Source: Desulfovibrio psychrotolerans (lineage in GTDB: Bacteria; Desulfobacterota; Desulfovibrionia; Desulfovibrionales; Desulfovibrionaceae). From it: DNA of 64,000 bases. The DNA lies in the NCBI RefSeq assembly GCF_013340305.1, contig NZ_BLVP01000008.1, positions 173,408-237,407 of the forward strand. The letters are read 5' to 3'. Below the pieces are notes generated by a model. The model saw only the letters and a list, made by a program, of their open reading frames with translations, was not told the origin of the DNA and searched no databases. Position numbers and translations under genes: made by a program. Position 1 is the first letter of the stretch. Every line of letters begins with the position of its first letter. Of the stretch, positions 38 to 6,350 are shown piece after piece.

Positions 38-120
38 GGGTAGCGGAATACATTGTGCGCGAATTGCGACATGTATTCTGCGCGATAGAGTTCTGTTGCG
101 TGATTCTGCGGGAGAAAGGC

Positions 121-2832
121 ATGAATATCCTCAGCCGTCGGTTGGGACGTCAGGAAATGGCACCCGTTTTGGGCGATTTCCGGTATGCGTCACTCAGGAC
201 CAAGCTCATGCTTGTGCTCATCCCTTCCATTGCCCTTATTCTGGTGATTGCGGGCATCATAACCTACTTCATTACCTTTGATTACGTGACGATAGCCCTG
301 CGGCGCAACGCCATGGTGCATAACCTTGCCACGGCGGAAGCGGTGCGCGCGTTGCTTGAGGAAGGCAGGAAAGATATTTCGGTCATTGCGCAAGCCTCCG
401 GTTCTTCCACCGGGCTCAAGGAGTATTTTACCCGCAATGCGGCTGCGGGGGGTGTCGCCTACCTTGCCGCCGGGAGAATTGGCCCGGACGGCGAGGGATA
501 CATGGTTTCACTGGTGAACCAGAGTCCCCTGCAGGTAGCGGAGCAATTCTCCCTTAAGGATATGCGCCCGGCACCGCATGAACTCATGCTGCACCTTTCC
601 GCCGTGCCGACCGGGCATGTGTGGATATCTCCCGTAGAGACGGTATTCATTCCCCAGCCCAGGGGCATTCCCATCCGCAAGCTTGCCGAACTGCCTGCCA
701 TAACCTTTGCTACAGCCACAGAAACCCCGGCGGGGCGGACTATTCATTTCCTCATTCTCGATGCCCGCGATGTGCGGAACATCCTTTCCCTGTACGAGTC
801 GGAACAGTCCCCCATATGGGCTTTTGCCCGGACGCACGAGGTGCGTTACAGCTACATGTTCAATACGGCGGGGTGGATTCTCTTTCAATCCGAGTCGCCG
901 GAAACGCCGGAAGCGCCTCTATCCACCTATCTTGCGCGATCGGCAAAGAGCGGTACGCTCGGCACGCCGGAACTCGCCTGTGCCTTCCGCCCCGAGGCCA
1001 AAGATCGCTTCTGGCATATCGTGGGTGACGTGCGGCAGGGGAAAAAGGGGATAATGAAAGACCCGAGGGGAGCGTCCATTGACGATAACCTCAAAGAAAC
1101 CTCCATAGCCTATGCGCCCATCATGTTCCGCCCCGCCAAAGACGCACCGGCCTTTGTGTACGCCGGCGTTGCCTTCAGCGATGTGAGCAGGCTTACCGTT
1201 GCCGCCGGATACAAACATGTGGATGTGATGATAGCCGTGGTGCTTGTGGCCTGCGTTGTGGCGGGGGCGCTGATTTATCTCATCTGCCGGGTGCTCACGC
1301 GTTCCGTGGTACAGCTCGCGGAGGCCGTGGGAGAGATCAACCAATCCGGCTCGCTGGCACCCATTGCCATGGACCCGAGCGGGTACGAGGCGTTGCTGCT
1401 GAAAAGTTCCATCAACCGCATGCTGGAAACCATACGGAATCAGTTTGCAGAGATTCGCCGTAAAGACCGCACCATACGCGATGTAGGTCTCATGCAGCGC
1501 ATTTCGTCAGAGGAGCTTTCGCAGGAGCTGCATTCAACCGCGTGTGAAAGAATGCCCAGCATCATCGGGGGCGGAGCCGTGCTGGACGCATTGCGGCAGG
1601 AGATACTGAAAGCCGCTCAGGTAGATGCGGATGTGCTCATAGTGGGGGAAACAGGAACCGGTAAGCAATTGACCGCAGAAGCAATTCACTTGAACAGCAG
1701 GCGTGCGGAGTATCCTTTTATCTCCATAAACTGCGGCGAGCTGGATGAGAATCTGCTCATAGATACGCTTTTCGGCCATGTTAAGGGGGCCTTTACAGAG
1801 GCGCGTGCAGATCGGCAGGGAGCCTTCCGCGAAGCGGAAAACGGCACCCTGTTTCTGGACGAGATTCAGTTGGCATCTGCCCGTGTGCAGCAGGCATTGT
1901 TGCGCGCGCTGGCCATGCGGCTCATCAAGCCCCTGGGCAGCGACAGGGAGGTGCCCGTGAATGTGCGGGTTATTGCCGCCACCAACGTGGACCTGCGCAA
2001 GCTGCTTGCAGAGGGGCGTTTCCGTGAAGACCTCTTTTTCCGGCTGAACGTCATCACCGTAACCACGCCGCCACTGCGGCGGCATCCGGAAAATATCGTG
2101 CCCATCGCCTTCCATTATCTGGGCGAGGCGGCGGAAGAACTGGGCAAGCCCCACCTTGCTCTCAGCCGCGGGGCAGTGGAAAAACTCAAGGTGTATCAAT
2201 GGCCGGGGAATATCCGGGAGTTGAAAAACGCCATTATCCGCGCTGCCGTAATGAGTAATAATGATGTGATTCAGGCTTCGTGCCTCGTTTTGGGCAATGA
2301 GGTCGGTCATGCTGGCGGACAGGTGGCCGAAGGCCCGCCTGCGGGAGCGGAGCGGCCCGTATCATTGGAAGAAGCCGTGTGTATGGGCACGACAGGTATG
2401 GAAGAGCCGCTTTCTCCCGACGAGGTGCCGTGGGTTCCGGGCAATGTGTCCGGCGATGGTCAGGCCTCCTGGGCGGTGCGTCCGCAGGGCGGTCCGGCCG
2501 GAAACACCAAGGAACTTGCGTCCGGTGAGAATGCCGGAGGGCCGGAGCCACGTGCGGCGTTGCCGGAAAGCCCTGCGGAGGCAGCGCACGCAGAGGCGGT
2601 TGCGGTTGGAAACATGGAAGGGCTGAACAGCCGCCAGCGTGTGGCGTGGAACGTGCTTCAGGAGCGCGGAGAGATTACCCGCAGGGAGTACGAGGAGCAC
2701 ATCGGCGGCAGCGTTGCCCCCCGCACAGCGTTGTACGACCTGCAGGATATGGTGCGACGCGGGCTCGTGGAGCGGCGCGGAAGCGGGCCGGGAACGGTAT
2801 ACCGCCTTGTGACTGCCAAGCCTATTGCGTAG
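121..2832 (+). CDS. Membrane-anchored sigma54-dependent transcriptional activator
   Basis: The 903-residue protein has a first membrane segment at about residues 29-54, an extracytoplasmic region of about 320 residues (probably a sensor domain), a second segment at about 368-392 followed by a HAMP-like stretch, and then a complete AAA+ sigma54-interaction domain. That domain shows Walker A GETGTGKQ near 508, a loop-1 GAFTEA near 556 in place of the usual GAFTGA, Walker B GTLFLDEI near 575, and FREDLFFRLNVI. A roughly 110-residue low-complexity linker leads to a C-terminal winged-helix-like domain (about 832-903) rather than the usual Fis-type helix-turn-helix. The start at 121 was chosen because GGAGAAAGG precedes it. 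It faces the transporter cluster and is the obvious candidate regulator of it; that link is inferred. Direct periplasmic sensing would bypass a histidine kinase. Confidence 0.88.
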   Translation: MNILSRRLGRQEMAPVLGDFRYASLRTKLMLVLIPSIALILVIAGIITYFITFDYVTIALRRNAMVHNLATAEAVRALLEEGRKDISVIAQASGSSTGLKEYFTRNAAAGGVAYLAAGRIGPDGEGYMVSLVNQSPLQVAEQFSLKDMRPAPHELMLHLSAVPTGHVWISPVETVFIPQPRGIPIRKLAELPAITFATATETPAGRTIHFLILDARDVRNILSLYESEQSPIWAFARTHEVRYSYMFNTAGWILFQSESPETPEAPLSTYLARSAKSGTLGTPELACAFRPEAKDRFWHIVGDVRQGKKGIMKDPRGASIDDNLKETSIAYAPIMFRPAKDAPAFVYAGVAFSDVSRLTVAAGYKHVDVMIAVVLVACVVAGALIYLICRVLTRSVVQLAEAVGEINQSGSLAPIAMDPSGYEALLLKSSINRMLETIRNQFAEIRRKDRTIRDVGLMQRISSEELSQELHSTACERMPSIIGGGAVLDALRQEILKAAQVDADVLIVGETGTGKQLTAEAIHLNSRRAEYPFISINCGELDENLLIDTLFGHVKGAFTEARADRQGAFREAENGTLFLDEIQLASARVQQALLRALAMRLIKPLGSDREVPVNVRVIAATNVDLRKLLAEGRFREDLFFRLNVITVTTPPLRRHPENIVPIAFHYLGEAAEELGKPHLALSRGAVEKLKVYQWPGNIRELKNAIIRAAVMSNNDVIQASCLVLGNEVGHAGGQVAEGPPAGAERPVSLEEAVCMGTTGMEEPLSPDEVPWVPGNVSGDGQASWAVRPQGGPAGNTKELASGENAGGPEPRAALPESPAEAAHAEAVAVGNMEGLNSRQRVAWNVLQERGEITRREYEEHIGGSVAPRTALYDLQDMVRRGLVERRGSGPGTVYRLVTAKPIA

Positions 2833-2882
2833 CGTAGAAGCTATTCTGTTGCGGGCAGACACGCTGTTCTGCCAGCACAAAG

Positions 2883-2918
2883 AACCGCCCGCGCGAGATG
2901 TCGCGCGGGCGGTTTTGT
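2883..2918. terminator. Bidirectional terminator between convergent genes
   Basis: A perfect 14-bp stem (2883-2896 with 2901-2914, loop GATG) is flanked by TTTT on the right and an A-rich stretch on the left. It can therefore end transcription of both the sigma54-activator gene and the response-regulator cluster. Confidence 0.85.
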
Positions 2919-3029
2919 GTGTTATTCCGGCCTGACGCCCTGCGTAGGGGAACAGGGCGCAGGCCGGTGGGGTTCTCCTCTGCCTTTGTACCGTTACGAC
3001 GGCAGAGGAACCGGGTTTGCTGTGAAGAA

Positions 3030-3479
3030 TCAGAACCAACTGGTCTTCTGCACCTTATCCAGTTGTGCCCGCTCTTCCGCCTTGCGGATGCGCTCTTCGC
3101 GGTCACGCTTCACGGTGGTGGCTTCGTTGATCTTGCCCAGCAGTCCTTCGAATTCATACGGCTTCATCATGTAGTCAAAGGCGCCGAGCCGCATTCCTTC
3201 CACCGCGGAAGGCACGTCTGCATGGCCTGTGAGCAGCAGCACTTCCACGCCCAGATGCTTGGCGCGGATTTCGCCCAGCGTCTCTATGCCGCTCATGCCG
3301 GGCATTCTGATATCCAGCACCACCACATCCAGAGGAACAGTGTCCAGGATGGCCAGTGCCGCGCTGCCGCTTCCGGCTGTATGCACCTCGTATCCACGTT
3401 CCTTCAGGCGCTTGGAAAGCGTGTTGCGGAAGTCTTCCTCATCATCCACCAGCAGAACTCTTGTCTTGTCTTCGTTCAT
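3030..3479 (-). CDS. Single-domain response regulator (CheY-like receiver)
   Basis: This 149-residue protein consists of a receiver domain plus a short charged tail. The acidic pocket (VDDEED), the phospho-acceptor aspartate in VVLDIRMPG, the conserved Thr in LLTGHAD and the Lys in MKPYEF are all present, so it should be phosphorylatable. There is no output domain. AGAGGTG precedes the ATG. It is the last gene of the minus-strand set CBS protein - anion transporter - receiver, about 90 bp behind the transporter. No histidine kinase is adjacent, so its phosphodonor is unknown. Its position suggests control of transporter activity or of a signalling partner; this is inference. Confidence 0.85.
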   Translation of the reverse strand: MNEDKTRVLLVDDEEDFRNTLSKRLKERGYEVHTAGSGSAALAILDTVPLDVVVLDIRMPGMSGIETLGEIRAKHLGVEVLLLTGHADVPSAVEGMRLGAFDYMMKPYEFEGLLGKINEATTVKRDREERIRKAEERAQLDKVQKTSWF

Positions 3480-3572
3480 TATACACCTCTGTTATGCCCA
3501 TCCGGCCATGTGCCGTTTGGGGTGGTGAAACCATTTTCCAGTTCCGGGTTGTTGCGCGTTATGCTGCCCGGT

Positions 3573-5039
3573 CTAGTTGAAACCGATGAGGGGCCAGTAG
3601 GTCAGCGCGCTCAGAACGCATATTGCCAGCAGCACCAAGCACCACGGAATAGCGACCTTGGAGAACTCTATCTGATTGAAGTAGCCCGTGCTGTAAGCAA
3701 TGATGGTGGGCGGGCAGCCTATGACCAGCATGATGAAGGACGTGGTCATGGGAGAAAGCAGACCCACGGTTTCCACACTCATGTTCATCATTTCCGCCAT
3801 GGGCAGGGTAATGGGCAAACTCAGTGCCACGGCCGCGGAGTTGCTCATCATGCTGGAGAGCACGGAGCCGAAAAGGCCCATGCCGTAGTAGGTGATAAAG
3901 GCGTTATGACCTTCCAGCAGGGGAATGAGCGATTCAGCCAGAAACTTGCCAAGACCGGACTTGAGCATGGCTTCGCCCAGAGAGACGCCGGAGCCGAAGA
4001 CTATCCACGATTCCCACGGGAACTTGTCGCAGATGGTCTTGAAGGAAACCCAGCCGGGAGCGCAGAAGAAGGCGAGGGCAATGGCCGCGACCACGCTCAC
4101 GTGCCAGCCGGTAAGGTCACCGAGGAACCAGAGGATGAAGGCGGCGGAGAAGACCAGCGAAACACCCAGTTCCGCAGAACTCATCTTGGGCATGGATTCG
4201 ATCTTTACGGAGGCGGGCAGTTCCACTTCCTTGGGGCGGAATACCGCGTAGCAGATGACCCATGTGGCAAGAGCGGTGAGGATACATACCGGGAATTCAA
4301 TGATTGCGTACTTCAGGAAGCCTATCTTTACGGCAACACCGGTAGTTTCGAGAATGAACTTCTGGGTAATATCCACAGCAAGGGCGCAGCGACCGCCGCC
4401 GAGCAGCGTGCCGAAGCCCCCGGCAGATGCTGCCAGCGGGATGAGGATGATAAAGAACTTGCTCAGGTTATTGCTCTTCTTGGGGGTAATGCCCATGGCG
4501 TGGAAGATGGGCAGAATGGCAAAGAGCATGATGATGGTGATGGTGGCATCGTGGAATATGGAGGAAAGAATGGTGCTGCTCACGGCAATGAAAAAGCTCA
4601 GCTTCTTCACGTTGGTTCCCGCGAATCGCAGAATCCAAAAGAGCAGACGCTTGGCCAGCCCCACTTCGTTCAGCACCACGCCGAACATGATAATCATCAT
4701 GACGAACATGACCGCTTGGTTAGCGTATGGCGCCCAGGCGGCGGAACTCTTTGTCACCTTGAGCATGATCATCAGGGCCGTGGCGAGCAGGGCGGTTACG
4801 CCGATGGGAATGGCTTCAGAAACCCACAGGAATACTAAAGGGATAAGTATGGCTGCCAGCCTGTGAGCCTCTATCGGCAGGTTGTCCGGACGGGGCAGGA
4901 GCAGAATCAGCGCGCCGAGTCCTGCAGCGATAAGCAGCTTTATAATCATGGAACGGGTGGACTGGGTAGGACCCTGCGGCTCTTCCTCGTGGACAACAAG
5001 TTCATTGGGGGAATGGTCCCGTACGTCTTGTGCGCTCAT
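3573..5039 (-). CDS. SLC13/DASS-family anion permease
   Basis: This is a 488-residue polytopic membrane protein with a soluble N-terminal tail of about 30 residues and roughly a dozen hydrophobic segments. It resembles the divalent anion:Na+ symporter (SLC13, CitT/DASS) group, whose members move sulfate, dicarboxylates or related anions across the inner membrane. Two re-entrant-type regions are recognisable: SAGGFGTLLGGGRC near residue 205 and MMSNSAAVAL near 400, followed by GCPPTIIAYSTG. The first departs from the usual SNT/IGTPPN pattern, so the substrate cannot be named; sulfate is plausible in a sulfate reducer. AAAGGAG precedes the start. It sits 55 bp after the CBS gene and is probably co-transcribed with it. 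Confidence 0.82.
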   Translation of the reverse strand: MSAQDVRDHSPNELVVHEEEPQGPTQSTRSMIIKLLIAAGLGALILLLPRPDNLPIEAHRLAAILIPLVFLWVSEAIPIGVTALLATALMIMLKVTKSSAAWAPYANQAVMFVMMIIMFGVVLNEVGLAKRLLFWILRFAGTNVKKLSFFIAVSSTILSSIFHDATITIIMLFAILPIFHAMGITPKKSNNLSKFFIILIPLAASAGGFGTLLGGGRCALAVDITQKFILETTGVAVKIGFLKYAIIEFPVCILTALATWVICYAVFRPKEVELPASVKIESMPKMSSAELGVSLVFSAAFILWFLGDLTGWHVSVVAAIALAFFCAPGWVSFKTICDKFPWESWIVFGSGVSLGEAMLKSGLGKFLAESLIPLLEGHNAFITYYGMGLFGSVLSSMMSNSAAVALSLPITLPMAEMMNMSVETVGLLSPMTTSFIMLVIGCPPTIIAYSTGYFNQIEFSKVAIPWCLVLLAICVLSALTYWPLIGFN

Positions 5040-5094
5040 GATAATTCTCCTTTATGGTGCTCGTTCAGCAGTCTTGCGGTGAGTGTGCGCCGGG

Positions 5095-5649
5095 TTAAAG
5101 GCGGCAGGTTTCCTTAATTCTGCGCCCTATCTCCCGGTAGACATCGGAGAAGCGCAACATGCCCATAAGCTTGTTCCCGTCCATGACAAACAAAGAATCG
5201 TGCCTGAACATGACGAACATATGGAAGGCGTTGTTCAGGGATTCTTCCAGATCAATAATCTGCGAACTGTTGGGAGACTGAATGAAGTCGCGTACCAGCA
5301 CATCCTTGGCTGTGGTGCACAGATCATCCAGCGGCTTTGCCCATAGTACGGACTGGTTGCGCATGGACTGGATAACGTAGTCGAAGTTACCCACAAAGGT
5401 GCTTGTCTGTTCGTTGAGCAGCTTGTCGTAGTTAGGTTCCAGTCCGCGCACCACATCAATGGGTGACAGCTTGCCCACAACCTTGTTTTCGCTGTCTGTT
5501 ACAAGCAGAATGCGCTGTTCCCGCTTGCCCGAAACATAATCCTCCTGTGCCCGTTCCAGAGCGATAACAGCGCCTGCCAGGGTGGCTGTCTCTGATATGA
5601 GAGGAAACTTGGCTATGGGAACCATCAGATTTTTAACTTTTTCATACAT
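5095..5649 (-). CDS. CBS-domain protein
   Basis: The 184-residue soluble protein is built of two CBS-type motifs. The N-terminal half contains LMVPIAKFPLIS and VVGKLSPIDVVRGLE; the C-terminal half contains VLVRDFIQSPNSSQII and LFVMDGNKLMGMLRFSDV. CBS pairs usually bind adenine nucleotides or S-adenosyl ligands and regulate a partner. Here the partner may be the anion permease encoded immediately downstream. The ATG at 5649 follows AAAGGAG at a good distance. The frame stays open much further upstream, but that extension is low-quality sequence without a ribosome site. It is the first gene of the cluster, so the regulatory signals at 5753-6190 act on it. Confidence 0.8.
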   Translation of the reverse strand: MYEKVKNLMVPIAKFPLISETATLAGAVIALERAQEDYVSGKREQRILLVTDSENKVVGKLSPIDVVRGLEPNYDKLLNEQTSTFVGNFDYVIQSMRNQSVLWAKPLDDLCTTAKDVLVRDFIQSPNSSQIIDLEESLNNAFHMFVMFRHDSLFVMDGNKLMGMLRFSDVYREIGRRIKETCRL

Positions 5650-5752
5650 GGCTGGTGCTCCTTTCATGCTTCCGTCGACGGGGGAGGGCCGTCTTCGGTT
5701 CTGCTGGGGGAGGTTTCCCCTCTGCCTCCGACACGTTCCATGTCTGCCCTCT

Positions 5753-5768
5753 ATCAATGGTCGTGCCA
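5753..5768 (-). promoter_or_regulatory. Candidate sigma54 (-24/-12) promoter of the CBS-transporter cluster
   Basis: On the minus strand the sequence TGGCACGACCATTGAT matches the sigma54 consensus TGGCACG-N4-TTGCW in spacing and in every core base except the -12 GC, which is GA. The implied start is near 5742, about 93 nt before the CBS gene ATG. A sigma54 activator is encoded at the other end of the cluster. The -12 mismatch keeps this tentative. Confidence 0.4.
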
Positions 5769-5817
5769 GTTCAAGGGTGCACGATATGGCTCTATGTAGT
5801 ATTTGATTGTAATAAAT

Positions 5818-5846
5818 AGATAAAATTTTTGTTACACTTTTCACAA
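5818..5846 (-). promoter_or_regulatory. Candidate sigma70 promoter of the CBS-transporter cluster
   Basis: Minus-strand -35 TTGTGA (5841-5846) and -10 TTATCT (5818-5823) are 17 bp apart in an AT-rich island of an otherwise GC-rich region. A Rex-like palindrome covers the -35 box. Confidence 0.5.
5829..5846. promoter_or_regulatory. Rex-like operator
   Basis: The minus strand reads TTGTGAAAAGTGTAACAA, which fits the Rex format TTGTGAA-N4-TTCACAA at 12 of 14 positions. It overlaps the -35 of the cluster promoter, a repressing position. CRP/FNR-family regulators such as HcpR use similar arms, so the binding protein is inferred. Confidence 0.45.
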
Positions 5847-6230
5847 GAGGGTTTCGTGCAACCTCCGCCTGCCGTAAGGGCGGTGCCGTGGCACGGGCAG
5901 CCTGCCGCGCTGCACGATTGTACTGCAGGAAGTAAAGAGCAGTTGCACGATGCGCGAACTTTTCTTGCATGATGCGTGATGGTTTTCTGAAGGAAGACCA
6001 TATTCTGGCGCTTATTTGCCCGATGATGCCGATGTGGTTGCACGATATGGAGCCGTGCGGAGATGTTCTGCACGTTTTGTGCACGATGGGGAGGCGGGGA
6101 GCTTGTGGATTTGCACGGTGTGCAGGGTGATCTTCCCATTTTTTGGAGGCCTGAGAAGTGGAGGCTATGCAGCTATGTTCATTGCACGCTTTTGGGTTTT
6201 CATTTTGCGTGTGGGGCAGGGTGTGGGGAA

Positions 6231-6264
6231 AAGAAAAAGGACTTGAAGGCAAACCTTCAAGTCC
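6231..6264 (-). terminator. Intrinsic terminator of tRNA-Arg
   Basis: A perfect 11-bp stem (6239-6249 with 6254-6264, loop of 4) is followed on the minus strand by a T-rich run (6231-6238). It lies 10 nt past the tRNA 3' end. Confidence 0.9.
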
Positions 6265-6273
6265 TTGATGTTT

Positions 6274-6350
6274 TGGCGCGCCTGGGAGGATTCGAACCCA
6301 CGGCCGTCTGCTTAGAAGGCAGATGCTCTATCCGACTGAGCTACAGGCGC
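6274..6350 (-). tRNA. tRNA-Arg (anticodon UCU)
   Basis: A 77-nt cloverleaf reads on the minus strand. The acceptor arms GCGCCTG/CAGGCGC have discriminator G and an encoded CCA. The D arm is GTAGCTCAGTCGGATAGAGC, the anticodon loop is CTTCTAA with anticodon TCT, and the T loop is TTCGAAT. It decodes AGA and probably AGG. It has its own promoter and terminator and stands alone between the octamer array and folC. Confidence 0.95.

Follow-up and report, generated by a model that had tools for sequence, protein, structure and literature searches.

Gene content of the locus

The window analyzed here, a 64,000-nucleotide stretch of the Desulfovibrio psychrotolerans genome, contains an operon whose first gene encodes a CBS-domain protein and that further comprises genes for a DASS-family anion transporter and a stand-alone receiver domain (Table 1). 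Based on the transporter family and on similar clusters in sulfate reducers, this CBS-DASS-receiver operon probably takes up sulfate or a similar anion. Pfam detected no DNA-binding domain in the receiver, and it was ruled out as a DNA-binding regulator because Response_reg was its only match. Upstream of the operon is a non-coding intergenic region (5650-6273) that is flanked by the start of the CBS gene (5649, minus strand) and a tRNA-Arg gene.

The wider locus (L040:1318-17267 together with window positions 121-5649) holds two paralogous CBS-DASS-receiver operons that share approximately 62, 64 and 72% identity, as well as EBP1 and EBP2, the two winged-helix sigma-54 activators detected in this genome. 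Two large PEP synthase-like proteins, a histidine kinase and a TSUP permease, all named from their translations, are also encoded there. A poly-C run followed by approximately 105 N was noted just before window base 1 (G000:C8 ~173285-173407, corresponding to L040:17286-17408), and because of this scaffold gap the known EBP1 leader begins at window base 1. A CBS homologue was detected in none of the nine other searched genomes of the genus, two of which contain a match to a winged-helix activator. The CBS-DASS operons may have been acquired or lost.

Table 1. Features of the octamer array, its promoter and the associated genes (window positions unless stated otherwise)
Feature	Position	Strand	Evidence and remarks
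C-type family words upstream of EBP1: ATCGCGCA (79-86), ATCACGCA (97-104)	55..104	minus	
EBP1, sigma-54 activator with C-terminal winged helix	121..2832	+	Pfam Sigma54_activat, winged-helix model, tree; second-choice reader
Stand-alone receiver domain	3030..3479	minus	Pfam Response_reg only
DASS-family anion (probably sulfate) transporter	3573..5039	minus	Pfam Na_sulph_symp, E 2.2e-40
CBS-domain protein, first operon gene	5098..5649	minus	Pfam CBS
Sigma-54 promoter (-24/-12), TGGCACGACCATTGAT, also given as TGGCACGaccaTTGAt	5768-5753	minus	11/12 consensus positions; similar ones in orthologous leaders
Octamer array, 5 exact and 6 one-mismatch TGCACGAT	5778..6190	+	Proposed UAS; shuffle counts, helical phase, close-pair search of genome
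Proximal octamer	5778..5785	+	9 bp upstream of -24 element
IHF-like site TATCTATTTATTA, one mismatch	5810..5822	minus	AT-rich stretch between array and promoter
tRNA-Arg	6274-6350	minus	
EBP2, sigma-54 activator	L040:7019-9472, outside window		~13 kb from array; likelier reader

A helically phased octamer array

The intergenic region harbors a cluster of the octamer TGCACGAT, which reads ATCGTGCA on the minus strand, that is, toward the CBS gene. Exact copies are located at positions 5778, 5911, 5944, 6039 and 6080, each on the plus strand, and copies with one mismatch at 5966, 6017, 6069, 6112 and 6183 on this strand and at 5853 on the opposite one, with the same orientation in 10 of the 11 copies. 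The original prediction had reported five exact copies and five one-base variants in approximately 410 bp of non-coding DNA; the exact copies and the non-coding nature of the region were reproduced, whereas the variants were found to number six. In 2000 dinucleotide shuffles of region 5650-6273, the exact octamer was present on average 0.0185 times (maximum 1), and octamers with at most one mismatch 0.52 times (maximum 4). Apart from this octamer, no 8-mer of the 64-kb window reached five copies within 410 bp. At the level of the 3.79-Mb genome, clustering was judged by a pattern search for exact same-strand pairs 10-40 bp apart, of which there are two, both in the array leader. The repeated octamer cluster is thus confirmed. 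The chance frequency initially given for the octamer, once per 65 kb on one strand, was about right, since the genome contains 186 copies on both strands together (100 of them listed by position), or approximately 1 per 41 kb per strand.

Eight core sites share a helical face, with a resultant length R of 0.90 at a period of 10.5 bp (p = 0.0014, with periods of 10-11.2 scanned and a null that ignores shared ancestry). For the same eight sites, the resultant length at 11.0 bp was 0.13. The spacings of 33, 22, 11 and 32 bp that had been read as multiples of 11 bp do exist, but the 11-bp period itself was dropped in favor of 10.5 bp. Helically phased direct repeats occur in iterons too, and a tRNA gene adjoins the array, so that a non-regulatory origin was considered, whether as a replication iteron, as a dispersed repeat or as some other repeat near the tRNA. 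This origin appears highly improbable: no replication gene was recognized among the neighboring ORFs read, the copies are alike only over a core of 8-10 bp, exact same-strand pairs 10-40 bp apart exist at no other site of the genome, and the motif recurs before orthologous operons.

Sigma-54 promoter and its surroundings

The window promoter was evaluated against TGGCAC-N5-TTGC-like -24/-12 elements and misses a single position of this consensus. One RpoN gene is present in the genome (Sigma54_DBD match, E 5.9e-62). Four other leaders of the non-redundant set have a site related to the proximal octamer, likewise upstream of the -24 element and at a distance of 8-9 bp from it. An IHF-like site is located 43-45 bp upstream of the -24 element in 6 of 9 leaders, a frequency reached in 0 of 2000 block shuffles under a null that ignores shared ancestry; in the window this site starts 54 bp from the -24 element, its position being less conserved here.

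Further targets were searched for in this genome. The pattern ATCGYGCA-N5-14-TGGCAY had four genome matches, and it yielded no further target since a -12 element follows only the match in the window. Other copies of TTGCACGAT (L001-L006) were inspected, and none was taken forward as a second target. The palindrome ATCGTGCACGAT was considered as an operator; it has no exact copy in this genome, and among the printed leaders only that of G089 contains one. In addition, the CBS leaders of G064, G034, G061, G058 and others share a word similar to ATGGTGCACAAT in their untranslated part, between the sigma-54 promoter and the CBS start and approximately 40-60 bp from the latter. Its form in G089 is the palindrome ATCGTGCACGAT, and the word could be a second operator.

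Conservation of the octamer in related leaders

The CBS protein was searched for in 297 genomes of the order, the loci were fetched, and their leaders were extracted. ATCGYGCA was present within 500 bp in 9 of 11 CBS leaders from loci with a winged-helix sigma-54 activator (window included), as opposed to 0 of 26 CBS leaders that have no such activator in their vicinity (Fisher p = 4e-7, where both sets contain near relatives that are not independent). The two leaders with an adjacent activator that lacked the word were L052 and L087. Where the activator was in the same locus or genome but not adjacent, 2 of 8 further leaders carried the motif, one of them being L043:19690, which has a good promoter. 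A sigma-54 promoter was found at a similar place in most leaders of the winged-helix activator loci.

Among all 8-mers in nine non-redundant CBS leaders, window included, ATCGTGCA ranked first, and an EM model of the leaders excluding the window converged on aTaTCGtGCAAAat. The refuting condition set with the original prediction, missing conservation before orthologous operons, was checked, and the idea survived; motif discovery recovered the same word. With one to four sites in most orthologous leaders, an array of this length is a particularity of the present genome.

For the wider activator family, 40 leaders were fetched by means of the winged-helix domain, mostly without CBS genes, and thinned to 35, of which approximately 28 gave the motif TATCGCGCAAAA. 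When a model was trained without any sequence of this genome, 6 of its top 20 matches in the 64-kb window were in the 624-bp array leader, and its best match in L040 was the paralogous CBS leader. Given that family leaders mostly devoid of CBS genes provide a related motif, and given the matches of the trained model, the octamer belongs to the winged-helix activator family and not to the transporter genes alone. The 8-mer GTGGCCGA was enriched as well, in the leaders of 12 of 40 activator-family loci versus 0.75 expected, and may stem from the coding region of a divergent gene that is conserved.

These data bear on the function of the array, which had been proposed to be an enhancer or multi-site operator. 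The enhancer reading holds in that the motif is kept before orthologous CBS-DASS operons beside a sigma-54 promoter and also coincides with the occurrence of winged-helix sigma-54 activators. The proximal site, only 9 bp from the -24 element, is near for a classical enhancer, which would suit octamers that are operators of another, unlinked regulator of the same promoter, such as a repressor. We regard this as improbable, because, from genome to genome, the motif goes along with winged-helix activators, even beside genes other than CBS-DASS, and because no DNA-binding domain was found in the receiver of the operon.

EBP1 and EBP2 as candidate readers

The C-terminal 74 residues of EBP1 were modeled as a winged helix with a mean pLDDT of 89, comprising helices 8-20, 25-32 and 38-50 and wing strands 54-57 and 64-67. 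Structural comparison ranked the C-terminal part of DIP2311 first (Z 10.3 over 63 residues), in a tie with several other winged helices, and weak Pfam matches agree with this fold.

The gene for EBP2, a paralogue of EBP1, is divergent from the paralogous CBS-DASS-receiver operon, the leader of which has two exact octamers. In a tree of 53 activators, EBP2 is in a clade with all CBS-linked activators (support 100/100), and EBP1 pairs with an activator of G142, a genome of the same genus (support 100/100). This relative of EBP1 is divergent from a TSUP permease operon, and no CBS gene was detected in G142. In the genome studied here, the TSUP leader lacks ATCGTGCA; it contains C-type words, among them TTGCGCAA and TTCACGCAA, and a sigma-54 promoter of its own, TGGCCCGAAGATTGCT. 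G089, in which the motif precedes two CBS operons, has a single detected winged-helix activator, which is of the EBP2 type. The CBS-linked clade, the location of the EBP1 kin beside TSUP in a genome with no CBS gene detected, and the detection of the EBP2 type alone in G089 suggest that EBP2 is most likely the reader of the array, with EBP1 possibly reading it alone or in addition. This order of preference is not firm since T-type and C-type words overlap between the branches; C-type sites were found in several EBP2-linked leaders, and neither type of word is exclusive to a branch.

The activator at 121-2832, EBP1, had been named as the likely reader. It adjoins the operon, and it retains the residues that are invariant in this winged helix. 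Family-type words in the EBP1 leader are possible autoregulatory sites. That EBP1 is the main reader within an otherwise identical enhancer mechanism is nevertheless rather unlikely, in view of the CBS-linked type of EBP2, the TSUP association of the nearest EBP1 relative and the C-type words of the TSUP leader. The original assignment is thus doubtful as to the preferred protein, although EBP1 may still take part.

Proposed mechanism

Judging from the sites, their phasing, the promoter, the conservation, the co-occurrence with the activator family and the predicted winged-helix fold, the array is probably an upstream activating sequence (UAS) of the sigma-54 promoter of the CBS-DASS-receiver operon, bound by a winged-helix activator, most likely EBP2. 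This activator, apparently membrane-anchored, would bind the ATCGTGCA octamers, and several protomers would line up on a single DNA face, approximately 140-350 bp upstream of the promoter, to nucleate the AAA+ ring. A bend at the AT-rich IHF-like stretch would then loop the DNA and bring the ring to the sigma-54 polymerase poised at 5768-5753, where ATP hydrolysis would open the promoter in answer to a signal. This signal may be extracytoplasmic, since hydrophobic stretches were noted around the N-terminal region on reading the EBP1 sequence.

A joint reading of these data can be put forward tentatively. Winged-helix sigma-54 activators may bind short same-orientation octamers as monomers, a phased array may template the AAA+ ring, and the number of sites may set the response; after a duplication, the two activators of one locus may have diverged in specificity, EBP1 toward the C-type word and the TSUP operon, EBP2 toward the T-type word and both CBS-DASS operons.

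Relation to known systems

The regulon type itself was already predicted in 2015 (Kazakov et al.). The present analysis adds a word that characterizes the CBS-linked branch, relates it to the word of the whole family, and describes a many-site, single-face array, which is the unusual part of the system. A concrete site is thereby proposed for a little-studied class of sigma-54 activators that have a winged helix and not a Fis-type domain, and this class is linked, in a sulfate reducer, to an operon that probably takes up sulfate. As orthologues naturally range from one site to 11 phased sites, their comparison could reveal the number of activator sites required and the way in which such sites nucleate the ring.

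Three known systems can be compared. Classical sigma-54 UAS consist of few inverted repeats, whereas many short same-orientation octamers on one face are found here. Similar to the present case, their sites are at least 100 bp upstream of the -24/-12 elements. Their looping is likely aided by IHF (PMC4641369), which may apply here too. Classical sites are bound by Fis-type activators, and a winged helix would take this role here.

The DASS-CBS-two-component clusters of sulfate reducers, like the operon studied here, combine DASS genes with CBS proteins and receivers and are taken as sulfate uptake systems in the available excerpts of two papers (PMC11887813, PMC5840216), which do not mention a sigma-54 enhancer. 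In the present analysis, DASS-CBS loci without a winged-helix activator lack the array motif.

The present system is in line with the regulon of the DVU0151 type that Kazakov et al. predicted in 2015. Among 37 activators of D. vulgaris, DVU0151 alone had no annotated Fis-type domain; some of its orthologues, such as Dbac_2039, match a winged helix (PMC4641369). Dbac_2041 is listed as a DASS transporter (PMC5840216), and the closeness of the two gene numbers suggests the same activator-DASS arrangement in Desulfomicrobium baculatum. The genome scan returned no Desulfovibrio vulgaris locus. The comparison with the DVU0151 regulon concerns features other than the motif letters. Both systems have a single-component sigma-54 activator in which a Fis-type domain is missing and a winged helix is probably present, along with a GAFSEA/GAFTEA-type loop. 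The DVU0151 activator is divergent from a sigma-54-driven transport operon, where a motif was inferred (PMC4641369). In contrast, the EBP1 gene and the operon in the window are not divergently arranged, and a long phased array is present in the operon leader.
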